Of a stretch of DNA of 64,000 nt, positions 11,539 to 58,891 are shown piece after piece. The stretch spans positions 1 to 64,000 of the IMG/VR virus record IMGVR_UViG_3300045257_000190; one strand, 5' to 3'. The translations under genes and the position numbers were made by a program. The notes beneath the pieces are model-generated. The model searched no databases, had not been told where the DNA came from, and saw only the letters and a list, made by a program, of their open reading frames with translations. This DNA is from a virus. Numbering within the stretch: the stretch's first letter is position 1; each line of letters begins with the position of its first letter.

Positions 11539-14496
11539 ATGGATCTGCCGACCACGCTCGCCCGTATCGTCCCCACCACCCCTGGCACGTATCTTATCGT
11601 CGTCTATAAAACACCCAGAGGTATCACTTACCGATCCTTCCCGGCCGACACCGGCCACCTGAGTGCCGCTGCGCTGATGGAGCGCATGTCCGCCCAGGGG
11701 TTTGATACGTATTTCGCCATCAGCGGGTTCACCGCGCCCCGCCGTCTGCGCACCAACGTCGCGGGCAGTCGCGCGCTCTACATCGACGCCGACGTGGCAC
11801 GCCCTGGCGACGGCAAGGATCCCGCCAAGGTATTCCCGGACCGCAAGGCGGCCTGGACGTGGCTGACGCGGTTCACCAAGGGCACGGGATTGCCCTTGCC
11901 GAACGTCACCATCGACTCGGGCTACGGGTATCACTGGTACTGGGTGCTGGACGAGGTGCTCGACCTGGACCGGTGGCAGGCGCTGGCCGACGCGTTTTTG
12001 GCGGCCATGATCGCGCATGGCTGGACCGGAGACACCGCGCCGACGATCGATGGCGCAAGAATATTACGCCCGCCGGGTCTGCTGAACCACAAGGAGCCAA
12101 GCACCCCCGCGCCGACCAGCGTGTTCACCCACGTACTTTTCCCGTCAGACGATCATCCCCTTAAACTTATAGAAAATAGTCTACAGGCCTACCGGAATTC
12201 CACTCCGACTCGGCCGGGAAGCCTGTCAAGCGGGAAAACGAGCGCCCATCGAAGTGTCGCCAGTTCGTTGGGCACTCCGCCGGCGCACGTTACTCCGGGA
12301 GTAAACCAGGGTCTGAACGCTGCCGCCCATGCCAACATGGGCAACCTGCACGAGCCTCACTGGTTCGAACACATCGCCACCCGCTGCCTGCAAGCCAAGC
12401 AATCCCTGGACACCAACGGCGCGGGTGATTCCTACCAGCTCTGGTACCTGGGCTGGATCACCCTGCTGGCCTTCTGCGAGGACGGGGACGACTTCATCCA
12501 CCTCGTGTCCAGCGCGCACCCGAAATACGCCCAGGCCAACGTCGACGCGCATTTCACCCAGGCCCAGCACGAGATCGCCACCAAGGGCCTCGGCCCGCCC
12601 ACCTGTGCGGCCCTGGATCTGGCCAACCCCGGCGTGTGCGCCGGCTGTCCCTTCCGGGTCAAGGTCAAATCCCCCATCGCCCTCGGCTATCCTGCCGATC
12701 CGCTGGGGGATCTCCCGCAAAACTACCGGCGCACCGGCACCCACATCGAGGGGCTGGTCGGTCAGGGGAAAACGCAGCGCTGGGCGAAGCTGATGCCCGG
12801 CGACGTAACCAACCCCTGGCTCGAGCAGGTAACCATCGGCGGCCAGCGGTTGCACTTCGAGTATCTGTTCGGTGGCGAGGTCATACCGATCAACGCGCTG
12901 GCTGAAGCAGTCAGCATGGGTGGCGTTGCCATCGTGCAGCATCTGACGCGCCTGGGTATCACCGCGACCAAGCTCGAGTTCGAACGCATAGGGGACTTCC
13001 TCGTGGCCTGGATCAAGCAGCTCCGCGACCGGCGTGTGATCAACCGCGACGGGCTGCGGCCCTTTGGTTGGACCCATGACGAACAGGGCAGGCACCTGGG
13101 CTTCGCGGTCGCCGGCACGCACTACCTTGCCGACGGCAGCGAGCAGATGATCGCCGCCGGCGATGCGACGATTGCTTCGTACTATCGACCGGCGGGGGAT
13201 TATAGCGAGTGGCTCAAACCGGGCGCGCTATTCCAGAACAGCGAGCCGGCGGCGCAGCTGATCATCGCCACGGCGTTCGCGGCACCCCTGATATCGCTGG
13301 CCAGCATGGTCAAAGGGGTGAGCTGGAACTTCTGGTCGAGCAACTCGGGCGTGCAAAAAACCGCCGCGATGGATTACGCCCAGTCGGTGTGGGGCGATCC
13401 GGTGCAGAAGTCCTCGCAGTCGGATACCTACAACGCCGTGGTGAACCTGCTGGGCACCACGCGCGTGCTGCCACGGTACTGGGACGACATGCTCTGTGAC
13501 GACAAGGAGTCACAGGAAACCTTTAACGCATTGGTGCGCAGCATCACCCAGGGCGCCGAGAAGAACCGCCTGAGCGCATCCGCGCAGCTGCAGCGACGGC
13601 ACGAGTGGGAGACCATGCTGGTAATCTCATCCAACCGGTCCCTGAGTGACCTACTGGCGGCCAACGACACGACCGATAGCGGATACCAGCGCCTGATCCA
13701 AGTGAAGTTTGAGCGACAGGCCACGCCGCATAATGCGCAGGTGGGTCTCACGCTGAACCTGATCAAGAACAACTACGGCCACGCGGGGCGCATCTACGCC
13801 AAGCACATCGCCATGCATCACGATCCTATCCAGCAGGAGATCGTCGAGTCGATGGACGTGCTGGGTCAGAAGTTCAGCGTCCAGCAGGCCGAGCGTCACT
13901 TCGTCACCGCGATGGCGTGCATCCTTGTGGGCGCACGCCATGCCGAGAAACTCGGGCTGTTCACCTTCGACCATCGCGGCATGCTGAACTGCATGCGGTT
14001 GTCACTAGGGGATCTGCGCAGCGCCACCGGTGCGCAGGTGCTGGTGGGCAACACCGGCGTGTTCGACCATGTGGAAGTGCTGGCACGCTACGCACACTAC
14101 GAAGCAGCGCGTCGGGTACGCACGGATATTCTTGGCACGCCGGGTAGCATGAAGCCGAACATCCTCGGGTCGCCTACCGCCAACAACATCAACGTGCAGA
14201 TCGCCCAGCGGGCAGCTATCCTGCGCATCAACCGGTCGGATTTCCGCAAGTGGATGACGGCCAACAACATCCCCGCCAATGACCTGATCAAGCAGATCAG
14301 CCAGCTACCCAACGTACGCCAGACCCGCGAACATATCGGCGGGGGAACGCCATGGGCTACCGTGAAGCTGTGGGTGCTGGACATACCCCTGGTAGGACCA
14401 TTGGCGAGCTTCCTCGATTCGATCGACCAGCAGCCCATCCATGGGCTGACCCACCTGCAGAACCTGCGGCAGGATGCGCCCACGTCCACGCCATAG
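11539..14496 (+). CDS. Primase-helicase (AEP-type primase, Cys motif, DUF927-like ATPase)
   Basis: A 985-aa fusion. The N-terminal domain has an archaeo-eukaryotic primase pattern: YIDADV (D83, D85), then GYHWYW (H132), then ARILRPPGLLNHK. A Cys motif (C356, C367, C370) lies in GVCAGCPFR and may bind zinc. The C-terminal region resembles DUF927-type superfamily 3 helicases, with SSNSGVQKTA (K607, T608) as a degenerate Walker A and YWDD as a possible Walker B. The ATG follows a perfect AAAGGAGG. It probably primes and unwinds DNA for the family A polymerase. A palindrome copy lies inside it at 12,292-12,302. The helicase assignment is weaker than the primase one. Confidence 0.83.
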   Translation: MDLPTTLARIVPTTPGTYLIVVYKTPRGITYRSFPADTGHLSAAALMERMSAQGFDTYFAISGFTAPRRLRTNVAGSRALYIDADVARPGDGKDPAKVFPDRKAAWTWLTRFTKGTGLPLPNVTIDSGYGYHWYWVLDEVLDLDRWQALADAFLAAMIAHGWTGDTAPTIDGARILRPPGLLNHKEPSTPAPTSVFTHVLFPSDDHPLKLIENSLQAYRNSTPTRPGSLSSGKTSAHRSVASSLGTPPAHVTPGVNQGLNAAAHANMGNLHEPHWFEHIATRCLQAKQSLDTNGAGDSYQLWYLGWITLLAFCEDGDDFIHLVSSAHPKYAQANVDAHFTQAQHEIATKGLGPPTCAALDLANPGVCAGCPFRVKVKSPIALGYPADPLGDLPQNYRRTGTHIEGLVGQGKTQRWAKLMPGDVTNPWLEQVTIGGQRLHFEYLFGGEVIPINALAEAVSMGGVAIVQHLTRLGITATKLEFERIGDFLVAWIKQLRDRRVINRDGLRPFGWTHDEQGRHLGFAVAGTHYLADGSEQMIAAGDATIASYYRPAGDYSEWLKPGALFQNSEPAAQLIIATAFAAPLISLASMVKGVSWNFWSSNSGVQKTAAMDYAQSVWGDPVQKSSQSDTYNAVVNLLGTTRVLPRYWDDMLCDDKESQETFNALVRSITQGAEKNRLSASAQLQRRHEWETMLVISSNRSLSDLLAANDTTDSGYQRLIQVKFERQATPHNAQVGLTLNLIKNNYGHAGRIYAKHIAMHHDPIQQEIVESMDVLGQKFSVQQAERHFVTAMACILVGARHAEKLGLFTFDHRGMLNCMRLSLGDLRSATGAQVLVGNTGVFDHVEVLARYAHYEAARRVRTDILGTPGSMKPNILGSPTANNINVQIAQRAAILRINRSDFRKWMTANNIPANDLIKQISQLPNVRQTREHIGGGTPWATVKLWVLDIPLVGPLASFLDSIDQQPIHGLTHLQNLRQDAPTSTP
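12292..12302. repeat. Dispersed palindrome copy 10 (inside gene)
   Basis: ACTCCGGGAGT within GTTACTCCGGGAGTAAAC. In the primase-helicase gene. Confidence 0.85.
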
Positions 14497-14512: not shown

Positions 14513-16273
14513 GTGGCGATAGAGAACTCGATCACGATCACGGTCACCGGATACGTCAACCATGACGGACCCATAGACGCGCAGTTCGTGTTGCAGGTGC
14601 CCGCACCAGAGCCGCCTAACCCCACACCCACGCCCACCCCAACGCCGACACCCACTCCAACACCGACACCACCGCCCAGTGGCGACACCACGCCGCTGAG
14701 CGTGCGCATCGACTATCAGGGTACCAGCCACGTGTTCAACGAAACGGCGGGTGTGGACCTGGGTGACTACCGCGAGACGGGCGGGCACTTCACCCAGCGC
14801 TGCGTGCTTTGCACGCTGCCCGAGCTACCTGGGTTCCGCGTCATGTTCCGCCGCGATCGTGGCGGTGCGCCGCGCGACGAGGTGGTGTTCGAACTGGGGA
14901 CGCTGTTCACCGGCACACCGGCGAACATGCCGGCCTACATCGCGACGATCCTGCGCGACGGGAATACGCTCGCGGTGGTCGACGCGTCGCTGGGGCACTA
15001 CTGGAACGCGTGCTGGCGCTGGCAGTCGGCGCCACGGCCGATCATCTACCCCGCTGCCGGGCTGATGGGGACGATGCTGCCGGCGTACTCGGACGCATTG
15101 TTCGGATCGAAGATCCCCCTCTCGGCGCCGCGCCACTATGCCGGGCCGATGGATCTGGCGGGGATAACAGCTTACATCCCTAGCACCGGCGAGCGCGACG
15201 AGATCGGTCCGTGCACGGAAGCACAGGCAGAGTTTCTGTGTACTGGCAGCGACGCAGCGTGGGCCTCGACGCTGGCGCAGCTCGAGGGAGCGGGCACGAT
15301 CCCGCTGCGGTTCCGCGATGAGCATACCAACGCGCCGCTGGACTGGGCTGCTTACCCCCAAGCGACGATGTATTCGCCCAACGGGGCAAACCCCTACATC
15401 AAGAACCCGACCAGCCCGGTGACCCTGGACTCTGCTCACATGGGAAGTTTTGCGTACGTCCCGTTCGTGCTGACCGGCGATCCCTACGCCCTTGAATGGG
15501 TGCAGTTCTGTGCGGTCTACAACGTCGTCTGCCTGAGCCCCGGCGCACGCGCGAACTTCTCTCTCGGCAACGCAATCCGCGCGGTGGCATGGGCGCTGCG
15601 CTCGCTGGTACAGGCGGCCACCGTGACGCCCGACAATGTGCCGGGATGGTTGTTGCCGAAAACGATCTTCCAGTCACGCTTCGACGATCAGCGCCAGTGG
15701 TTTCTCGACAAGTATGTCAACGGCACGACCAAGCCCTGCAGCGATCTATGGATCTTGCAGACGCCCGAGAACTCGCCTGGGTCGCCGACATCGAAGCCAC
15801 CGGCGAACACCTACGTGTCGATATGGATGGAGGACTTCCTTACCACGGTGCTCGGTTGGGTTGTCGCAATGGGTCACAGCGACTGGCAGTCCATTCTCGA
15901 GTGGAAAGCCAAGGACACGATGGCGCGCACCAACGGTACATCGGGTTGGGTGCGCGCGGTGCCCACGATGTATCAGTGCATGACGCGCGAAGGGCCTACC
16001 GGTCTCTCGGTAACGAGTTGGCATGACGCATGGAACCTCAACGCACGCCTGCTGCCCGACGTGTGCGCCTACGACGATCCGAACGTGATCCCCGCACAGG
16101 TGGATATCACCTACCCGTCCTACACGCTGGGCGCGCTGGCGCTGGGCGCGCATGCGGGCGTGGACGGTGTAGCTGAGTGCTATGACTGGCTGCTCAGGCA
16201 GCTGCAGGCCAACACCACGACCAGCAAATACCCCCGACGTAAGTGGGCGATCAGTACCACGACGAACCATTAA
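14513..16273 (+). CDS. Putative carbohydrate-active protein, (alpha/alpha)-toroid-like
   Basis: A 586-aa protein. I place the start at the GTG at 14,513, preceded by GAGGAG; an ATG further up overlaps the primase. An N-terminal beta-rich 35 residues are followed by a (Pro-Thr)n linker at about residues 40-60. The rest contains LDSAHMGSFAYVPFVLTGD and AWALRSLVQAA, a pattern I associate with a phage family that looks like six-hairpin glycosidases or polysaccharide lyases. The neighbouring gene is also glycosidase-like, so the pair may degrade host polysaccharide. The catalytic residues are not identified, and whether it is virion-bound is unknown. Confidence 0.55.
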   Translation: MAIENSITITVTGYVNHDGPIDAQFVLQVPAPEPPNPTPTPTPTPTPTPTPTPPPSGDTTPLSVRIDYQGTSHVFNETAGVDLGDYRETGGHFTQRCVLCTLPELPGFRVMFRRDRGGAPRDEVVFELGTLFTGTPANMPAYIATILRDGNTLAVVDASLGHYWNACWRWQSAPRPIIYPAAGLMGTMLPAYSDALFGSKIPLSAPRHYAGPMDLAGITAYIPSTGERDEIGPCTEAQAEFLCTGSDAAWASTLAQLEGAGTIPLRFRDEHTNAPLDWAAYPQATMYSPNGANPYIKNPTSPVTLDSAHMGSFAYVPFVLTGDPYALEWVQFCAVYNVVCLSPGARANFSLGNAIRAVAWALRSLVQAATVTPDNVPGWLLPKTIFQSRFDDQRQWFLDKYVNGTTKPCSDLWILQTPENSPGSPTSKPPANTYVSIWMEDFLTTVLGWVVAMGHSDWQSILEWKAKDTMARTNGTSGWVRAVPTMYQCMTREGPTGLSVTSWHDAWNLNARLLPDVCAYDDPNVIPAQVDITYPSYTLGALALGAHAGVDGVAECYDWLLRQLQANTTTSKYPRRKWAISTTTNH

Positions 16274-16290
16274 GATAAGGGATACACACG

Positions 16291-17625
16291 ATGTCCGACA
16301 CGGTGACCCGTGAGGAATTTGACGCGCTCGAGGCCCGTGTCACGGCGCTCGAGGAGGAGATGGGTGACCTCGGGCCCGATCCGATACCACCGGATCCGAT
16401 ACCGCCAGAGGAGGGCATCCAGGCCAAGCGCATCGTCGACCTGATCGAGCGGTTCGGTGTGAACACGTTCAGCTCGATGGACGAGAACAATACTTGGGGC
16501 AGCTGGCCGGCGGATTATTCGCCGCCGTCCACCGTCGCGGCACTGAGATACCTCGTCGGCGATAGCGGGTTCACCCTGGGCATCCGCGAGTACCACTACG
16601 TCGGCCGCTACGACATGCAGAAGCAATGGTTCGCGGCGATCCTGACGGAGTTCCCCGACACGCGGTTCACCGTGTGCCCTGGCGCCAACGCCAGCGTCAC
16701 CGATGTGCCCACCATGTTGCTGCTGCCGCACACCTGGGTGGAAGGGTTAAACGAACCCAACACCGACTTCGGTTCCGGCGAGGTTCCCTTCGAGACGACC
16801 CTCGCCATCCAGGATGCCATCATCGCTGGCGAAGATCATGGCATCATGGGGCCCAGCATCGTGGCGGGTACGCCACATCCCGAAGGTTGGATAACGGGTT
16901 ACTGCGGAACACCGGAGAACCTTGCGAAGCTTAACGAAAAGCTGGATCTCGGCAACGGGCACTACTATCCGCCCGCGTCACCCGACGTGCCCGGCACAGG
17001 TTACTCGGTGAACGAGTATGTGGGTGGGCTGTGGGGGGTGTACGGACATGATCTGGTCCACCTGACCGAGTTCCATCCCACGTTGTACAACGCGCGGGGT
17101 TTCAAGCCCGACCAGAAGGGCTGGGACGGACATCGTGACGCGTATTACACGCTATGCACGTGGCTGCGCTGCTGCCAGAACGGCACGCAGGGCCTGTGGT
17201 GGTACGCGCTGTTCGACTACGGCACCGTCTACAAGTGCGGCCTGTTCCCGCAGAAATACGCCAATGACCCACGACCGGTGGCCGAGGCGATCCGCAACCT
17301 GTGTACGATTTGCACCGACAAGGGTAACCGGCATGAGTTCATGCCCGGTGTGCTGGGCATAACGGTTAACGGGATGACCGACGCGATGGACTACGACGTG
17401 TATCAGGCGAGCGATGGTAGATATCTCGTGCCGGTGTGGCACGCCGCCGAGGAACTCGGGCAGGGCGATGCGGTGACGGTCACCTTCGAGTTCGACACAC
17501 CTGTGAAAAGCATCAACCTGTACAACCCGCTCGCCGGTGCCGCTTCGGTCGAGACGCGTCACGACGTCATACAGATGACGTTCGCCCTGCCACCGGGCGT
17601 AGTCGTGTTCGAGATCCATCCGTAA
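16291..17625 (+). CDS. Putative clan GH-A glycoside hydrolase with N-terminal coiled coil
   Basis: A 444-aa protein. Residues 3-30 form a short coiled coil (FDALEARVTALEEEM), typical of trimerising phage fibre proteins, followed by a Pro-rich linker (PDPIPPDPIPPEEG). The main domain looks like a TIM-barrel hydrolase: VEGLNEPN places a candidate acid/base at E155, and HLTEFHPT a candidate nucleophile at E260, about 105 residues apart as expected for clan GH-A. A C-terminal beta-sandwich follows. AAGATAAGG precedes the start. It is probably a depolymerase or cell-envelope glycosidase. The substrate cannot be read from the sequence. Confidence 0.65.
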   Translation: MSDTVTREEFDALEARVTALEEEMGDLGPDPIPPDPIPPEEGIQAKRIVDLIERFGVNTFSSMDENNTWGSWPADYSPPSTVAALRYLVGDSGFTLGIREYHYVGRYDMQKQWFAAILTEFPDTRFTVCPGANASVTDVPTMLLLPHTWVEGLNEPNTDFGSGEVPFETTLAIQDAIIAGEDHGIMGPSIVAGTPHPEGWITGYCGTPENLAKLNEKLDLGNGHYYPPASPDVPGTGYSVNEYVGGLWGVYGHDLVHLTEFHPTLYNARGFKPDQKGWDGHRDAYYTLCTWLRCCQNGTQGLWWYALFDYGTVYKCGLFPQKYANDPRPVAEAIRNLCTICTDKGNRHEFMPGVLGITVNGMTDAMDYDVYQASDGRYLVPVWHAAEELGQGDAVTVTFEFDTPVKSINLYNPLAGAASVETRHDVIQMTFALPPGVVVFEIHP

Positions 17626-17912: not shown

Positions 17913-18129
17913 CACATGCCTGCGGCACAACTATCTATACAAGGGTAACAACTGCCCTCAATGCAGCAAGGACGAACTGATCATGCAGTGGGGTGCGTCA
18001 GCTACCATCGTCCCCCAGCAGGAATACCTGCGAGTGGTAACAGATAACCGACGAGCACGAGCACCAGGATCAGCAACAGGATCAACCGCACAATCAACGG
18101 GAACGGTGGTGGCAATGGTATCAAGGTGA
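17905..18129 (+). CDS. Small zinc-ribbon-like protein overlapping an antisense gene
   Basis: A 74-aa protein starting at ATG 17,905 inside the end of the previous gene. The N-terminal half has C5 and a CPQC pair (C17, C20), suggesting a small zinc ribbon. The C-terminal half (Ala/Gly/Ser/Thr-rich) lies antisense to the membrane protein at 18,002-18,193 and looks like non-selected sequence, so the true functional part is probably the first 50 residues. The function is unknown. Confidence 0.45.
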   Translation: MVSTCLRHNYLYKGNNCPQCSKDELIMQWGASATIVPQQEYLRVVTDNRRARAPGSATGSTAQSTGTVVAMVSR

Positions 18130-18193
18130 TGATGTAGAAGATCACCCCGAAGATCAGCAGGATGATCAGCAGATGTATGAGAAGGGTGATCAT
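18002..18193 (-). CDS. Small two-helix hydrophobic membrane protein
   Basis: A 63-aa protein made of two long hydrophobic helices (LLIHLLIILLIFGVIFYIIT and IVRLILLLILVLVLVGYLLP) joined by a PLPPPFP turn. Small proteins of this type are common in phages and proteobacteria and are usually unnamed; a holin-like role is possible. GAGAAG precedes the ATG on the minus strand. It is the last gene of the late cluster and its 3' part overlaps the end of the convergent + strand gene by about 130 bp. Confidence 0.65.
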   Translation of the reverse strand: MITLLIHLLIILLIFGVIFYIITLIPLPPPFPLIVRLILLLILVLVLVGYLLPLAGIPAGGRW

Positions 18194-18235: not shown

Positions 18236-21200
18236 TTACGGGGCATTGGCGAACGCTCCCGCGCCCATGAGTGCTGCCGCCGACTGCTTAGGCAACCGCA
18301 GGCCGAAGGTGGCGCTGGACTTCTTCGAGGCTTTCTCCTGCTGCAGCAGCTGCTCGCGGGTGATCCGCGCGTGGGGGTTGGCCGCGTTATACGCCACGAT
18401 GGCCTGCCACGCCGCCGCACGGTCCGCTGGGCTGCCCTCGAGCCAGCTTGTGGTCAGCTGCGAGCGCTCGGCGGACTGCTCCTGGCGGGCCTCCAGGACC
18501 GCCGCGCGCCCCTCGCGGGTCTCGGACACCCGGGCCGGGTTGAACCCCACCGCGCGCAGCCCGACGTCGCTGTAGGAGATCTTGGACGGCGGCAGGATGG
18601 TGTGCCCCTTGGAGTCCACCACGCCCTTGCGGGCCAGATTGATCGCGTCCATCGGGTCACGGACGATGCGGGGGATCAGGGCGCGAGTGCCACCGAGATC
18701 GCCCTGCAGCAGCTTCGTCGCGCCCTCCACGGCCTTGGTGAGGTTGTCGCCGGTGGCGCCGGTGACCAGATGCATCAGCACCTCGCCGATACCCTTCGCG
18801 CCGAAGTTGGACAGCTCGGGCATCTCGAGCAGGTTGTTCAGCGCCACGCGCCGGTGCACGTCGAACCCCAGCGCATGCGGCAGGCCGCGCGATATGAGTT
18901 CGCCCGCTGTCTTGCCGAACACGCTGGCGATCGCGCCTCGCATGCTGTTCTCGTAGTTATGCGGGGCGCGCCCGTGGAACAGATCCCAGGCGCCGCCCAG
19001 GTAGCGGATCGCGTCGGTGGTGGGCAGCCCCAGCACGCCGGCCATCATGGCGTGCGTGCCCATCAGATACGCCAGTGACTTGCGTGCTTCCCAGCGCTCG
19101 GCGGAGGTGCCGGCACGCATGCTCTCTTTCACCAGCGTGCCCATCATCGCGTACATATGCAGGCCGTAGCGCTTGAACTGCATCAGCGGCGCGCCCGCCC
19201 ACTTCAAGGGCCCCATCGGCGAGGTGAGCAGTTCCCGATTCCCCGAGGTGTAGTTGGGCGCCACCCGCCGGGCGGTCTTCTCGGCGTACTCAATGGCGCC
19301 CGCCACGTCGCCCTTATTCTTCGCCAGCTCGAGATCGAACGCCGACTTCGCCGAGACGTAGCGGTTAATCGCGTCCACGTAGTGCGCCACGATCGCGTTG
19401 GTGTCGGCGACGCGCTCCCACATGCCGGCGATCTTGCCGTCGAACACGCCGTCGGGGTTCATCTGCCGGCGCATATCGCTCATCTGCGTATGGTCGATCA
19501 CGCCCGACTGGGCCAGCATGTCGTGCAGCGCCTGGATATGCGCCTTGTTGGCACCGGGCGCGTCCTGGAACTGCTTGGTCAGCATGTCCAGCACGTTCCA
19601 GTTGGACGATTGCAGGTTGTGGCGCATCGCCTGCAGCATGCCGTCGCCTGATTTACCCAGCACGGGTGCCGCCCGCGCGAGGTTCCGGGCAACCGCCGAC
19701 GTCGCCCTGAAGATCCCATGCCGCCCGCCCAGCAGGGCGATGCTGTTAGTGTGCGCCTCCATGGTGGACGTCACCATGTGCGAGGGCGACATCAGGCTCA
19801 TCGCGTAGTTGAACGCGTTCACGTGCGCCAGATTGCGCTGCACCGAGTTGTTCATGTCCTCGGGCCGCTGGATGCGCTTCTCGAGCGACTGGATCACCAT
19901 CGCCGCCCGGGTCGCGTCCCCCGGGTCGGCACCCGGTCGCTCGAGGTCGCGCTGCTGCGCCCAGAGATTATCCAGGGTTGCTTGTCTCTCAGCGCCGTGG
20001 CGCAGGTAACCCAGCCGGTTCACGTGGTTGACGAACTCGTTGGCCAGCACGCGGGAATGGTTGGTCTCGGCACCCACGATACCCTGGCGGCGCAACCGCT
20101 GGCGCGCCGCCTGGGTGTCGGACATATGGTTGACCAGGATGCTGGCCAGCACGTCCCGCGCGTGCTCGGCCTGCGCGGCGGTGAAACCCTTGCGCGCAAG
20201 CGCGCTCTCGAGTTCGCCCACCGCCGGGTGGGTGGCCAGGATGTCCTTGGTGAACTTCTGGTTGTGGCGGGTAACCTGCCACACGTCCTTCTCGCCGTAT
20301 TGCTTGACCAGCTCGGCGCGCCGGTCCAGCGCTTTGCTCTTGCGGTCGAAGAACTCGACGCCCCGGTTTTCATCGGTGCCATAGTGCACCACGTATTTCC
20401 CGTAGCGACGCTGGGGAAAGTAATCCCCCTTGGTGTAACCATACGAGTGCGCCTTGGCGACGATCTTCGCCAGATCGCGGTTCTCGGCCCACTTGGTGCC
20501 GAACGCCTTGGCGATCTCGGAGTTGTCGGGGTCTTTCATGTACGCCTCGAGGGACTCCTGATTGCGCAGCGCATGCACGAATGCGCTTTGCTGATCGGGC
20601 GTGACATCGGGTATCACCGACTTCAATGATCCCGAAAGTTCAGCCTCCCGTGTCTCCTTGTAGAACTGCTTGTACAGATCTCTGGCTTTGTTATAAAAAT
20701 CTTTGGCTCCGGACGACAGCTTCGCATACTCGGCCTGCGCCGATCGTAGTTCAGCCTGCTGCTCCGGGGATTTCAGATGCGCATTGGCGTCGGGCTTTAC
20801 CCCCTCGCCCAGATGCATCTCCCCGATCGAGGCCTTGTTCATCAGCTGCCCCAGTTCCTTCTGGTCCGACAGCTTCCCCCATTGCTTGATCAGCGCGCGC
20901 GTAGCATCCCCGAAGCGCTGCGCCGCCTCAGTGCCGGTGCGGGCAATGGTGTCGCGGATGCGCCGGTAGTCCTCCAGCCCGGGGAGAATATCCTTGTGGA
21001 AGCTGGTAAGTGCGTCGACGTTGGTAGCACCATATACGGCGTTGCGTAATCGATCAGGCAGATTGCTTGGACGAATCCGCTCGACAATGCCTCGTCCAGC
21101 GTCACGAAGGTAATCAACGGAAGCTTGGCGCAGAGGCTCGGCATGGGCGCGCAAGACCGGGTCACTGGGGTTTACCCTTTCATTGTGCTTGATCGACTCA

Positions 21201-24200
21201 TCGAGGATGTCCGTCACCGGCTGCATGATGTGATCGAGCAGCGTGTATTCGCTGGCGCTCTTAGGCTTGTCGAACCCAAGCGCATGCCGCGTCCAGTCGA
21301 CGAAGTACCGCCAGATCGAATTGCCCTGCTTACGGGGTTCGTAGCCCAGCTGCGACATGATGCGCCGGAACTGCGGGCTCGCCTGTTTCGAGGCGGCGAA
21401 CGCCTGCACCTCGGGGTTGGTCATCAGCCATGTGTGTACCTCACGGACGTCACTGGTCGCGTGGCGCAGTAGATTCCACACCCTCGGATCGACCGTCTCC
21501 CTGTTCAGCCTTGCATGGTTGGCCAGCTCGGTGCCGATCGTGCGCAGCGCGTGAAGCTCACGATGGTTCGGATCGGTCTTGAGAAGATTGTTCAGGCGGT
21601 CAGTGGTAACCGAGTGGGCGATCTCGTGCAGTATGGTCTGCGCGGTTGACGGCGTATCCAGGTTGATGCCGATGTGGCGCTGGCCGTCACTGCGCATGCC
21701 CTCATGCGTGTAATATCCGTGCGTGCCACGGGGACCGCTCTCAAGGTTGTAGTGTATACTCCTGTAGCCACGACGTACAGCTTCCCCGAACGATATGATG
21801 GGTATGTTATCGTTCACACGATCATAGAGTTTACGCGCCAGCTCCCATAATGGACGTTGCTCTGTCTTGAGCGCGCTGCTGCGCAGGATCGTCTCGAGTG
21901 CTGCCTTGGGTGTGTAGTCAACACCGTGTTCCTCGGAGGCGCGTATGTCCCGCCGCAGATCCTCGTGCAGACGCGGGTCGTTGGCCATGCGCACGTAACG
22001 CGAGGCAAGCGGATCACGCAGGCCTTCGGGTCTGACACCCTCCTGGCGCAGCACTCCACCCAGCCCGTGCCGGCGTTCCAGCTCCGCCTCGATCTGCGCG
22101 CGGGTGCGCTTCGGCAATGCCTCGAGGCGTTTGTGGATAACCTCGATGTCCTCAGGCGTTACCCCGCGCCGGTGCAGGATTGCGTTCTCGTAGCGCGCCC
22201 GGTCCTCGGCAGTGGCGCCTTCGGGCAGGCGTGCCCCAAGGCCCTCGATCTCGTACATCGCGCGCAGCACGCTGCGGGTATGTCCGCCGCCCGCTTCGAC
22301 CTTGGCGACGTGCTTCTCGATCTGCGACTTCGGTATCGACGCGTTCTCGACCGCGTGCCCGACCGGGTCGTTGATCGCCTTCAGTGCGTTCTCGAGGTTC
22401 TCAATCCGCTCGGGATCGAAATGCGACAGCAGCTCGTGCAACTCCTCGGTGCGGTGCTGCTTCTGCCGGGGTGACAGCTCGGGGTCAGGCGCGCGCTCAT
22501 GTTCCTGCTGCTGGCGTAGTAACTCTAGTTCAAGTTCCTTGTTCTTAGCCTGCTCGAGCCGGCGGGTGAGCCCCTCGGCAATCGTGTCATACCCCTCGCG
22601 CCGCTGCCGCCCACCCTGGCGGCGGTCCAGCTCGTATTCCGCGTGCGCCTCGGGGCCGGTGATCTCGCCGGAGGCGACCTTGTCCACCAGATCGTTCTGA
22701 ATGCGCTCGCGATCGGTGGTGCCGGCGGCGCGTTCTTTCTCCTTGGCCTCGCCGAACACCTGCGTGGCAATCGGTGCCTCGCCTGCCTCACCTTCATGCG
22801 CGGTGGGAACCGTTTCGCCTTCCTCGGCGGCCCGATGCTCGGCGACGCCCTCGAGTTCAGTCGTGCTGCCGCTTGTCTCGGCAACACGATCCTCGGTCTC
22901 GGCAGTCCGTGCGCCGCGCTCGGTCTCGACCGCGAAGCGCTCACCCGATGCCGCGCGCATCGCCTGGATCTTCCTGGCCTCCACGCGTGCCTTGCCCGCC
23001 TTGACCTCGGCCGCGCGCTCCTTGATCTGCGCGAGCTTCTCGGCGGCGGCCTCCTTCTTGGCCTTCTCGGCGGCCTGCAGCTCCGCCTCGCGCGTGGCCT
23101 TGGCGCGCGCGACGGCCTCGGCATCCACCGGCTTGGCTTCGGGGAGCTTGGCCTTGGCGGCGGCCTCGGCGGCGGCGGGCGCCCGCAAGGGCCCGGGCGG
23201 TGGCTCCTCGCGCTTTTGTTCGCGTATGGCCAGCACGTCGGCGAGCTTGGAGGGAGCCTTCGCCGCAGGCTTAGCAGCCGGCTTAGACAGGATATCGTGG
23301 GCTTCCTGCGGCTTCATATCGAGAAGCTGCTCAGGGGTGTAACCCCGCGCCGCAAGATCACGATACATCGCCTTCGTAATCATGAAGGGCACGCTGGCCT
23401 TGGTGTCCGGCGCCTTCGCCTCGCCCTCGACCTTGGTGATCTTATTGCCGAAGTGTACGCGCTTGCCGTCCTGCCACACCTCGACGGGGATCGCGCCCAC
23501 CGTGGGGTGCTCGGACACCTGGGTCATAGTGCGCCGTTCAAACTTACCGGCGCCCGGGCCCGAGGTGTATTTAACTCCCCACGCACCACTCGAGTGCTGG
23601 GCCAGAACTTTATCGGGGCCGCCCCGGGTCTGGAATTCACCTAGCTTATTAACGTCCCCTTCCGACACGTAGAACGTGCGATCGGAACGTGGCTGGGGTC
23701 CCTGCTCGGCGGCACCGTGCTCGGGGCGATACGCCTTGTCGCGCGTCGTCGTGCCGTCCTCGTGCACCTTGTAGGTCGAACCTTTGGCGGTGGTGAACCC
23801 GCCGGTGACCCTGGGCTCGGGCCCGGGTGTGGGCGCCACCCCTGCCGCTGCCTCTCCCGATGGTGCAGCTGGCCGCGCACCGACAGGTTCGGCAGGGGTG
23901 GCTTCAGCCTGAGGGGAGAGCGAACCCCCAGGCCGATCGGGTCGCGGCTCGACACCTACTCCCGGAGTAACCGTCTCAACGGGTTTGACAGGTGCTTCGG
24001 TGCCGGCAGGCCGGGGTTCACCCTCGAGCTTCGCACTTTCGCGCGCGTGCATCATCGCGATCTGCGGGGTGCTCATCCCCTTGAAGCTGTCCTCCGACCG
24101 GCCGGTCATGCCCATCAGGTCGCTGATCATGTCGGGGCGCTTGATGCCCTGCGTCGGCTTGATCGGTGCCCGTGCTTTTGACGCGGCTACGGCGGCCGCT

Positions 24201-25972
24201 GCAGGCTGCGTGGCGGCCGCCGCGACCCTGGCGGTGTCCACAGGGGGTGCGGCGGTCGCGGCCGTCTGCGCGGCCGCTGACGTGGCGGCAGGCGGGCCTG
24301 CGGGCGTGCCGCCCCCACCCGGCGGGGGCGGGGGCGGTGGCTCCCCCGGGCGCCGTGGCGGGTTGGCCTCGGGCAGCGAGGGGAACATCTCCCCCTGCCC
24401 CGTCGTGGGAACGATCGTGGGCGGTGCCTGATTGATCGGCAGTTCGTCCTGCCGGGCGCCGGGCATGCCCTGCGTGGGCGTGTTCATCGGCTGCGGTGGC
24501 GGCGTGGGTTCACCGGTCATTCGCCGCCCGGGCGCGTTGGCCTGCTGCACCTGTTGCAGTAACTCGCCCTGTGTGCCGCCCGGTGGGATACTCGGGGGCG
24601 CATTCTGCAAATCAAATTGCCCCTGCGGGGGCGGTATCGGACCGACAGGCTCGGTGTAAATCTGTCGCCCTGGCCCGGCTTCAGGTGGCCCGAGGGCTTC
24701 CTTCAGCGCCGCGCGTTCGTCAGGCGGTGTCTGCCCGACGTCGCGGGTATCCTCGATGCCCTTGGCGGGACCCTTGTGCGCGAGACCACCAATGGCGCCG
24801 AAGAACAACCCCGGGATCGCACCCGACGCGAACATCTTGGCGACCTTGGTGGGGTCGAATTCTTCGTTCAGGCCTGTCTGGATACCTGCGCTCTGGCTTA
24901 GAGCCTCATTGGTGGCTCCTTGAGTGCCCATCAGGGCACCACCCTCGGCAGCACCAATGCCGGCCCGGGCCAGTCTGCCACGCCCGGCGGTACCTAGCGC
25001 ACCATGCACCAGCGTGCCTGACACACCCGCACCGGTAGCGGCACCGACCACACCACCCGCTGCCACCAGTAAACTGGCGGTCTGCTGGATAACCTTCTCT
25101 TTAGCCGCGACGATGCTCATGCCCTGCTTGCGGTTCTCCGCATAGCCGGGCGCCTGCATCATCTCATCATCGGAGGCAGCGGTAACCTGCTTGACGATAT
25201 CGTTGTAGACCGCACCACCACCCTGTGCGCCAAAGAACGCCCCTGACCCGGCCATACCGCCACGCGTGGCAACGGTACCCAACGCAGCCTTACCCGCAGC
25301 AGCGATCTCCTCGGCAGTCTTACCGGCCGCCGTTGCCGCAGCGACTGCCTTCTCGGCGGTGCCGGCATATTTCGCAGCGGTAAGTGCTACCTTGGCGCCG
25401 ATCGAGCTGGGCAGCACGAACGACAGCAGCATGGGTATCTGCGCGGTAAGATTGATCGCCGCGTAACGTGCGGCATCGCCGAAGCTGTCTATCGACGGGG
25501 CTTTAGGGTCATCACTGAACAGGCTGGTCAACGTAGCCTTGCGTGCCCCAGGCGTCATGCTCTGGATCGACGCCTCGATATCATGCTCAAGCGACTGTTG
25601 GGCACGGCGGAAGATATTCTGCGAATCAGGATCGGAGCTTAGCTGTTGGGTTGCGTAAGCTGCCGCACCCATAAGATCAGCACCCATCGAGCGGGCGCCG
25701 TTCCACGCGGTCTTGGCGAAATCCGAGAAGTATAACCCGTGATCCTCGGGCGCAGTGTCAGGCGGGCGAAAGCCGAACGACTCACCGTTCGGATCATACC
25801 CGGCGATATCTTCGATGCTTTGAGTCGGTGGCCTGACTGGCGGTTGGTAATGACTGACTGTGCGCGACGATGGAGCCGGCGGAGTGTATGCCCGCGTGGT
25901 GGGTGTAATACCCGACGGAATACCGTCGAGCTGGTCCTGATAAAGCCCCTGTTCGAAATCATCGAGCGGCAT
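18236..25972 (-). CDS. Giant putative ejection protein with internal metallopeptidase motif
   Basis: A 2578-aa protein, by far the largest in the window. In order: a Pro-rich N-terminus; Ala/Gly-rich hydrophobic helices at about 150-420 that could insert in membranes; a Pro-rich low-complexity stretch at about 430-640; a long Ala/Glu/Lys coiled-coil region at about 900-1200; a zinc-peptidase motif HEIAH at 1449-1453 with a following Ser/Thr; then a long helical C-terminus. The gene order (nozzle, ejection proteins, transglycosylase protein, giant) matches podoviral internal virion proteins that leave the capsid with the DNA. The peptidase may act on host envelope or on virion proteins. I see no RNA polymerase motifs. 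The start ATG lies 3 nt after the upstream stop. Confidence 0.8.
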   Translation of the reverse strand: MPLDDFEQGLYQDQLDGIPSGITPTTRAYTPPAPSSRTVSHYQPPVRPPTQSIEDIAGYDPNGESFGFRPPDTAPEDHGLYFSDFAKTAWNGARSMGADLMGAAAYATQQLSSDPDSQNIFRRAQQSLEHDIEASIQSMTPGARKATLTSLFSDDPKAPSIDSFGDAARYAAINLTAQIPMLLSFVLPSSIGAKVALTAAKYAGTAEKAVAAATAAGKTAEEIAAAGKAALGTVATRGGMAGSGAFFGAQGGGAVYNDIVKQVTAASDDEMMQAPGYAENRKQGMSIVAAKEKVIQQTASLLVAAGGVVGAATGAGVSGTLVHGALGTAGRGRLARAGIGAAEGGALMGTQGATNEALSQSAGIQTGLNEEFDPTKVAKMFASGAIPGLFFGAIGGLAHKGPAKGIEDTRDVGQTPPDERAALKEALGPPEAGPGRQIYTEPVGPIPPPQGQFDLQNAPPSIPPGGTQGELLQQVQQANAPGRRMTGEPTPPPQPMNTPTQGMPGARQDELPINQAPPTIVPTTGQGEMFPSLPEANPPRRPGEPPPPPPPGGGGTPAGPPAATSAAAQTAATAAPPVDTARVAAAATQPAAAAVAASKARAPIKPTQGIKRPDMISDLMGMTGRSEDSFKGMSTPQIAMMHARESAKLEGEPRPAGTEAPVKPVETVTPGVGVEPRPDRPGGSLSPQAEATPAEPVGARPAAPSGEAAAGVAPTPGPEPRVTGGFTTAKGSTYKVHEDGTTTRDKAYRPEHGAAEQGPQPRSDRTFYVSEGDVNKLGEFQTRGGPDKVLAQHSSGAWGVKYTSGPGAGKFERRTMTQVSEHPTVGAIPVEVWQDGKRVHFGNKITKVEGEAKAPDTKASVPFMITKAMYRDLAARGYTPEQLLDMKPQEAHDILSKPAAKPAAKAPSKLADVLAIREQKREEPPPGPLRAPAAAEAAAKAKLPEAKPVDAEAVARAKATREAELQAAEKAKKEAAAEKLAQIKERAAEVKAGKARVEARKIQAMRAASGERFAVETERGARTAETEDRVAETSGSTTELEGVAEHRAAEEGETVPTAHEGEAGEAPIATQVFGEAKEKERAAGTTDRERIQNDLVDKVASGEITGPEAHAEYELDRRQGGRQRREGYDTIAEGLTRRLEQAKNKELELELLRQQQEHERAPDPELSPRQKQHRTEELHELLSHFDPERIENLENALKAINDPVGHAVENASIPKSQIEKHVAKVEAGGGHTRSVLRAMYEIEGLGARLPEGATAEDRARYENAILHRRGVTPEDIEVIHKRLEALPKRTRAQIEAELERRHGLGGVLRQEGVRPEGLRDPLASRYVRMANDPRLHEDLRRDIRASEEHGVDYTPKAALETILRSSALKTEQRPLWELARKLYDRVNDNIPIISFGEAVRRGYRSIHYNLESGPRGTHGYYTHEGMRSDGQRHIGINLDTPSTAQTILHEIAHSVTTDRLNNLLKTDPNHRELHALRTIGTELANHARLNRETVDPRVWNLLRHATSDVREVHTWLMTNPEVQAFAASKQASPQFRRIMSQLGYEPRKQGNSIWRYFVDWTRHALGFDKPKSASEYTLLDHIMQPVTDILDESIKHNERVNPSDPVLRAHAEPLRQASVDYLRDAGRGIVERIRPSNLPDRLRNAVYGATNVDALTSFHKDILPGLEDYRRIRDTIARTGTEAAQRFGDATRALIKQWGKLSDQKELGQLMNKASIGEMHLGEGVKPDANAHLKSPEQQAELRSAQAEYAKLSSGAKDFYNKARDLYKQFYKETREAELSGSLKSVIPDVTPDQQSAFVHALRNQESLEAYMKDPDNSEIAKAFGTKWAENRDLAKIVAKAHSYGYTKGDYFPQRRYGKYVVHYGTDENRGVEFFDRKSKALDRRAELVKQYGEKDVWQVTRHNQKFTKDILATHPAVGELESALARKGFTAAQAEHARDVLASILVNHMSDTQAARQRLRRQGIVGAETNHSRVLANEFVNHVNRLGYLRHGAERQATLDNLWAQQRDLERPGADPGDATRAAMVIQSLEKRIQRPEDMNNSVQRNLAHVNAFNYAMSLMSPSHMVTSTMEAHTNSIALLGGRHGIFRATSAVARNLARAAPVLGKSGDGMLQAMRHNLQSSNWNVLDMLTKQFQDAPGANKAHIQALHDMLAQSGVIDHTQMSDMRRQMNPDGVFDGKIAGMWERVADTNAIVAHYVDAINRYVSAKSAFDLELAKNKGDVAGAIEYAEKTARRVAPNYTSGNRELLTSPMGPLKWAGAPLMQFKRYGLHMYAMMGTLVKESMRAGTSAERWEARKSLAYLMGTHAMMAGVLGLPTTDAIRYLGGAWDLFHGRAPHNYENSMRGAIASVFGKTAGELISRGLPHALGFDVHRRVALNNLLEMPELSNFGAKGIGEVLMHLVTGATGDNLTKAVEGATKLLQGDLGGTRALIPRIVRDPMDAINLARKGVVDSKGHTILPPSKISYSDVGLRAVGFNPARVSETREGRAAVLEARQEQSAERSQLTTSWLEGSPADRAAAWQAIVAYNAANPHARITREQLLQQEKASKKSSATFGLRLPKQSAAALMGAGAFANAP
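23958..23968. repeat. Dispersed palindrome copy 11 (inside gene)
   Basis: ACTCCCGGAGT, exact. In the giant ejection-protein gene. Confidence 0.85.
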
Positions 25973-58231: not shown

Positions 58232-58891
58232 ATGGTAAAACAAACTCTGCTCTACGGCGTGGTGGCGGGGCTGCTCGCCGCGACACCAGCGAGTGCGACG
58301 CTGATATCCTCGGCGGCAGCGCCCGGCCAGCTGGCGGCGGGCGCGTGCGCGGGCAACGACGGTGGCGTGGGCTCATTGAATGTGAGTTGCTCAGGCGGGA
58401 TATACTCGTCTATCGCCATCTCGGCGGCAGGTCCGCCGTTGCTGAACGCGCCGGATCTGTCGGCGACGACGCTGACAGTGAAGACGACGGGCCTGGGGGC
58501 GGGCAGCTCGACGCTGGATATCAATATCGATTCGTCGGGCTTCGCGTTCGCCGGCGGGCCGGTGACCGCCATCTTCACGGTGAACAACCTGATCGGCGGA
58601 GGTGTGGGTCCCTTCGTGCTCACCGCGTCGGCACCGGTGGGCACGCTGACGCATACGTTCACCGCGTCGGGCAGTGCGCAAGACGGCCCGACGATCCTCG
58701 GGGCGTTCACCAACGACCACGCAGAGTTCCAGTTGACGTTCGCTGGCAACACCGTGCAGTCGCTCGACGCGACCATCGAGATCGTCGGCGCGCCCGAGCC
58801 CATCTCGCTGGCCCTGCTGGGGACCGGGTTGCTGGGTCTCGGGCTCGTCAGGCGTTCGCGCCGCGTGAGCGACGCTACGCTGGCGGGCTAA
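58232..58891 (+). CDS. PEP-CTERM secreted protein
   Basis: A 219-aa protein with an N-terminal signal peptide (hydrophobic core about 5-17, probable cleavage after ASA at 20-22). A Ser/Thr/Gly-rich beta domain follows. The C-terminus is a textbook PEP-CTERM tail: PEP at 188-190, a Leu/Gly helix to about 206, then RRSRR at 207-211. In bacteria this tail is processed by exosortase and sorts the protein to the surface, often with exopolysaccharide. In a phage genome it is unexpected and looks like host-derived cargo. I chose the second ATG (58,232) for its spacing to GGAGG. The stop overlaps that of the convergent gene. An inverted repeat precedes it. Confidence 0.85.
   Translation: MVKQTLLYGVVAGLLAATPASATLISSAAAPGQLAAGACAGNDGGVGSLNVSCSGGIYSSIAISAAGPPLLNAPDLSATTLTVKTTGLGAGSSTLDINIDSSGFAFAGGPVTAIFTVNNLIGGGVGPFVLTASAPVGTLTHTFTASGSAQDGPTILGAFTNDHAEFQLTFAGNTVQSLDATIEIVGAPEPISLALLGTGLLGLGLVRRSRRVSDATLAG

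Follow-up and report, generated by a model that had tools for sequence, protein, structure and literature searches.

Two adjacent genes that close the replication arm of this phage, P0001 and P0002, probably encode an exopolysaccharide-depolymerase set acting against the slime of the host, a reading to which we give a probability of about 0.6. Computation shows the predicted folds of the two proteins, the conserved pair of glutamates in P0002, the linkage and natural fusion of the genes, a common N-terminal module, relatives of P0001 in chromosomal exopolysaccharide loci and the absence of both genes from capsid relatives; we infer catalysis, the retaining mechanism, substrate, timing and delivery. 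The analysis covered a window of 64,000 nucleotides (positions 1 to 64,000 of the IMG/VR virus record IMGVR_UViG_3300045257_000190) and a set of fetched loci, given here as L numbers.

Two conserved genes behind the primase-helicase

The pair directly follows a primase-helicase gene (11539-14496) on the + strand, and matches to HNH endonuclease, DNA polymerase, helicase and primase lie ahead of it in this replication arm. The portal, capsid, tail and fibre genes are all on the - strand, with the fibre and spike genes at 39.9-44.4 kb. The preliminary description, made from the letters of the window, was thus right to place the pair on the presumed early (replication) strand and far from the fibre genes. 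The features of the two genes are collected in Table 1.

Table 1. Features of the P0001-P0002 locus and the phage PEP-CTERM protein (window coordinates)
Feature	Position	Strand	Remarks
P0001	14513..16273	+	586 aa, predicted toroid enzyme; GTG start; 35-member family A5
Short N-terminal module of P0001		+	Residues 1-29, ahead of the (PT)n linker
(PT)n linker of P0001, NPTPTPTPTPTPTPTPTPPP	14618..14677	+	Residues 36-55; low pLDDT 26-57
Beta-sandwich domain of P0001	14696..15025	+	Residues 62-171, from secondary structure of the model
Alpha/alpha toroid of P0001	15089..16270	+	Residues 193-586; GH88/GH105-like by predicted fold
P0002	16291..17625	+	444 aa, predicted clan GH-A-type hydrolase; ATG at 16291
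N-terminal coiled-coil helix of P0002	16309..16359	+	Residues 7-23; module common to some P0001 homologues
(Beta/alpha)8 barrel of P0002	16414..17325	+	Residues ~42-345
Codon of E155, predicted acid/base	16753..16755	+	NEP motif ('LNEPN'), strand 4
Codon of E260, predicted nucleophile	17068..17070	+	TEF motif ('HLTEFH'), end of strand 7
C-terminal beta-sandwich of P0002	17359..17622	+	Residues 357-444
Phage PEP-CTERM protein	58235..58888	+	Signal-peptide-like start; PF07589 24.1 bits, cut-off 20.7; not part of the pair

Both open reading frames are genuine and conserved. The GTG start of P0001 has an AGGAG about 10 nt upstream, and the homologue in L004 has a matching start ('MAITNDVTITVKG'). 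Profile searches of IMG/VR retrieved 47 P0002 loci and 43 P0001 loci, and the closest pairs of homologues are under purifying selection (dN/dS ~0.15 for P0002 of the window and L013, 0.2 for P0001 of L056 and L057). Searches of Pfam, PHROGs and NCBIfam with the two window proteins gave no match, nor did sequence searches of the PDB, and no recognisable signal peptide was seen on either protein. A consensus scan between the primase gene and P0001, of a kind that is uninformative when negative, found no promoter, and the RNA structure 3′ of P0002 is ordinary (z -1.0).

Two neighbours on the - strand deserve mention. A very hydrophobic small protein, perhaps holin-like, is encoded at 18002-18193, and L187 and L190 have similar small membrane proteins in this slot. 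The protein encoded at 18236-25972 is 2578 aa long and contains an LPD39 domain (Pfam, 1.7e-8); the capsid relatives conserve mainly its C-terminal half.

P0002 is predicted to resemble PslG

The model of P0002 (pLDDT 90, pTM 0.86) shows an N-terminal helix, a (beta/alpha)8 barrel and a C-terminal beta-sandwich. Its top match among solved structures was PslG of Pseudomonas aeruginosa (GH39; PDB 5bx9, 4zn2, 9g17), with a Foldseek value of 2.6e-16 and a VIA-align Z of 26.0 (rmsd 4.1, 348 residues aligned, 15% identity); GH30, GH51 and GH79, of the same clan, scored below it (Z 20-23). GH128 structures were not among the VIA-align matches listed, which excludes nothing. The likeness to PslG runs over nearly the full length of proteins of similar size and takes in the barrel, the C-terminal sandwich and the two glutamates; PslG attacks a biofilm exopolysaccharide, and the target of P0002 is presumed to be alike. 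P0002 differs from PslG in the low identity, in being phage-borne, in having an N-terminal coiled coil and a toroid partner but no signal peptide, and in the lack of a GH39 match, the Pfam model PF01229 finding nothing in the genome.

In clan GH-A, the acid/base glutamate follows an asparagine at the end of strand 4 and the nucleophile glutamate lies at the end of strand 7. By strand order in the model of P0002, E155, which follows N154, closes strand 4 and E260 closes strand 7, so that both the barrel and the 4/7 placement of the clan are predicted. These residues are invariant in 35/35 members of the family, as are R99, E151, N154, H224, Y226, T259 and D309, at identities down to 36%. The preliminary description had called P0002 a GH-A-like hydrolase with an N-terminal coiled coil and had picked E155 and E260 as plausible catalytic residues; the fold search agrees with it on the helix and the barrel, and the placement of the glutamates fits by topology and conservation, so that neither of the outcomes named there as refuting it (no barrel, or glutamates away from the pocket) was seen at this level. 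Judged by strand order, the two would be equivalent to E165 and E276, the catalytic pair of PslG (PMC7237758). We propose that P0002 would cut inside the chain as a retaining, PslG-type glycosidase of clan GH-A, E155 serving as the acid/base and E260 as the nucleophile.

The only recurrent hint from family models was Glyco_hydro_cc (PF11790, GH128), of the same clan GH-A, matched weakly (E <= 0.1) by 14 of the 35 members and above the cut-off by one, the L002 homologue (23.3 v 21); the window protein was unmatched. The closest BFVD model is that of an uncharacterised Caudovirales protein, and the P0002 fold therefore also occurs in other phages. No P0002 homologue was found among 50,697 phage records, nor by the profile among 84,980 bacterial and archaeal genomes in a search limited to two peptide patterns.

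P0001 probably is a glycan-cleaving toroid enzyme

The AlphaFold2 model of P0001 (pLDDT 86, pTM 0.85) consists of a beta-sandwich followed from about residue 193 by a helical toroid, and the toroid-like protein with a (PT)n linker of the preliminary description is recovered in it. Its fold matches are carbohydrate enzymes (GH88, GH105 and one polysaccharide lyase entry). The toroid resembles unsaturated glucuronyl hydrolases (Z 14.2 to 5noa, 14.1 to 4xuv), but these matches are weak: the Foldseek value is 0.013 at best, and comparison with the six-hairpin toroids of the unsaturated glucuronyl/rhamnogalacturonyl hydrolases GH88/GH105 gave Z of 12.4-14.2 against a helical background of ~13. The same fold is found in PL26 PcRGLX-like lyases; like the GH88/GH105 enzymes, these score barely above the helical background, and P0001 has an extra N-terminal beta-sandwich compared with all of them. 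Residues R268, D306, H309, D323, Y325, E328, R356, W360 and R363 are invariant in P0001 homologues. Together, the model and its matches suggest that P0001 is probably a toroid enzyme that cleaves glycans, as either a hydrolase or a lyase. Residue 266 (window 15308-15310), which adjoins the invariant R268, is Arg in the window and His in 33/35 aligned sequences, a change that may alter activity.

The sole relative of P0001 in named phage records is gp39 of EBPR siphovirus 1 (ESV1; JF412302), with 28% identity over 198 toroid residues. It differs from P0001 in being longer and in having a RIFT N-domain, with the PcRGLX (rhamnogalacturonan lyase) N-terminal domain above cut-off; this domain is missing from P0001 and from the other members scanned. 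Elsewhere in the ESV1 genome one ORF ends like a PEP-CTERM protein, and the window phage also encodes such a protein. We rejected gp40 of ESV1, the neighbour of gp39, as a counterpart of P0002, to which it is unrelated, having only fn3 repeats. This gene (L001:9075-11165) is annotated 'glycoyl hydrolase' and may be misannotated, its Pfam matches being essentially to fibronectin type III repeats.

The two families are linked, though often found apart

Genes for the two enzymes are adjacent in either order, P0001 coming first in the window and in L002, and P0002 first in L004; in L049 and L050 both enzymes are encoded in a single open frame of 1030 residues. Seven of the 29 P0002 contigs, the window included, also carry P0001, and 22/29 are without it. 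The P0002 barrel was present on 0/23 P0001 contigs; as this set comprised contigs not previously known to hold both families, it shows only that P0001 can stand alone. Many of the contigs in these counts are fragments. Neither family occurs on any of the 41 contigs that carry the capsid of this phage (0/41 for each).

A further link lies at the N-termini. The coiled coil 'VPTxxEFxALEARVxALE' of P0002 homologues is also present at the N-terminus of several P0001 homologues (L042, L063, L080, L081), in some of which it replaces the N-terminal module seen in the window P0001; in L080 it is detected by the P0002 profile.

Exopolysaccharide clusters harbour some chromosomal relatives of P0001

Chromosomal relatives of P0001 were found in five metagenome-assembled genomes. 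In L102, two tandem relatives with export-signal-like starts lie in a cluster with the exosortase XrtA (1.2e-81), a Wzx-type flippase, Wzy_C and a deacetylase-like gene. In L099, the relative adjoins Wzy_C, flippase, pyruvyl-transferase and deacetylase genes, and three PEP-CTERM proteins are encoded there; the genes around the relatives in these two loci include a pyruvyl- or acetyltransferase and a polysaccharide deacetylase. The relative in L101 adjoins the same GNAT-type gene as those of L099 and L102. The evidence from exopolysaccharide loci thus comprises three loci, all in metagenome-assembled genomes; the relatives in L100 and L103 are at contig ends and have no exopolysaccharide surroundings there. 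XrtA was above cut-off in 4/5 genomes with chromosomal relatives vs 0/14 control genomes.

Slime-cutting enzymes are often encoded inside the slime-making locus, PslG being the example (PMC9075953). Because P0002 is predicted to fold like PslG and distant relatives of P0001 lie in slime clusters, the pair probably strips host slime. The polymer would most likely be a slime whose synthesis is encoded in an exopolysaccharide cluster linked to the exosortase system (XrtA/PEP-CTERM) of a proteobacterial host, and P0001 would cleave a glycan of this same polymer or of a co-existing one.

PEP-CTERM proteins were also more frequent on the phage contigs that carry the enzymes. PF07589 matched 21/73 enzyme carriers (window excluded) and 2/41 capsid relatives when whole contigs were counted (p 0.003), and 11/35 vs 2/25 among contigs of at least 20 kb after dereplication by eye (p 0.054). 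This modest association fits hosts with an exosortase system and may mirror host taxonomy; by itself, the co-occurrence ties no PEP-CTERM protein to the enzymes. Taken with the PslG fold and the chromosomal relatives, it agrees with the earlier suggestion of an exopolysaccharide target. In Aquincola, a PEP-CTERM protein aids the binding of slime to cells in flocs (PMC9850573). The phage PEP-CTERM proteins have signal-peptide-like starts, and several that are alike in sequence lie within a few kb of P0001 or P0002 homologues (L078:9912-10583; L085:1082-1741; L039:9313-10143; L059:2392-3216; L062:11385-12032; L082:7094-8029, - strand).

The pair occupies a variable junction

The slot between the primase-helicase gene and that of the 2578-aa protein differs among relatives of this phage (L184-L193). 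It is nearly empty in L193, holds an HNH gene in L184 and L186, a glucosaminidase-like lysis gene with a lipoprotein in L185, and an integrase with small genes in L187, L189, L191 and L192, these names being read from sequence and not from family searches. The pair is therefore cargo of a variable junction and does not belong to the constant gene set of the replication operon, and the best reading is that it was gained where the two convergent gene arms meet.

Delivery and alternative explanations

We propose that both enzymes would be made in the cytoplasm and would then meet the polymer from outside the cell, after release at lysis or attached to the particle through the short coiled coil or the N-terminal module. 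The missing signal peptide is compatible with both routes. A virion-borne form, in which the coiled coil and the PT-linked N-terminal module would dock on tail or capsid and the particle would digest slime while entering, is possible, with odds somewhat below even. It is suggested by relatives directly behind tail-fibre genes (L034, L056, L070), ejection-protein-like genes (L042, L063, L078, L080) and portal genes (L017, L029, L039), and by the N-terminal modules common to both families, as expected of docking parts. In this phage, however, the position of the pair, in a cargo slot behind replication genes and outside the virion operon, does not favour the virion and speaks for release at lysis; the L008 relatives lie among DNA-metabolism genes, and a pattern search found the coiled-coil motif on no other protein, structural ones included, of the fetched loci.

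Depolymerases of cultured phages are mostly beta-helical spikes. A depolymerase-like match is already present among the fibre and spike genes of this phage, which also argues against carriage of the pair on the particle: the tailspike-type gene at 39857-42478 matches a PHROG for EPS depolymerase and presumably serves the same purpose as the pair, from which it differs in family and gene location as well as in the toroid and barrel folds of P0001 and P0002.

Other explanations depart from slime cutting outside the cell. Soil viruses are widely reported in the literature to carry carbohydrate-active genes, and the PcRGLX N-domain found in ESV1 gp39 is a hint of pectin-like substrates, so that the pair could be auxiliary metabolic enzymes through which soil or plant polysaccharide would nourish the infected host. 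We consider this very unlikely, since proteins without a signal peptide would not be exported through Sec by a living host, and wherever the surroundings of chromosomal relatives can be read, they are exopolysaccharide synthesis loci. We give equally little credence to binding proteins that have kept the fold and lost the chemistry: no member has a known activity and the window P0001 carries R266 in place of the usual His, but the glutamate pair of P0002, with N154, H224, Y226, T259 and D309, is held invariant across its diverged family, and selection is purifying. Polymerisation in Wzx/Wzy systems is periplasmic and the window proteins have no export signal, and relatives elsewhere lie in virion operons; both points tell against the least probable explanation, an intracellular block of exopolysaccharide synthesis as discussed for PslG in its own operon, which would suit the grouping with replication genes and the role of PslG in the producing cell (PMC9075953).

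Returning to slime depolymerisation, a transferable barrel and toroid pair, missed in this phage by Pfam, PHROGs and NCBIfam and with chromosomal relatives of P0001 in exosortase-type exopolysaccharide clusters, points to the polymer that such phages must cross. It would supply tools for flocs and biofilms in sludge and soil. A broader and rather doubtful extension is that the PslG-like barrel and the toroid form a phage-only modular two-enzyme system, with swappable coiled-coil adaptors and natural fusions, specialised on exosortase/PEP-CTERM slime and accompanied by phage PEP-CTERM proteins that exploit the host sorting pathway. If true, such a system would give an enzymatic handle on the nature of this slime.

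Lastly, many small genes lie at ~1-11 kb of L004 and L011, separated by similar intergenic sequences ('DIFCQDDYIS' and 'ILTRDVKR' recur in translation), which are possibly repeated promoters of a moron region.
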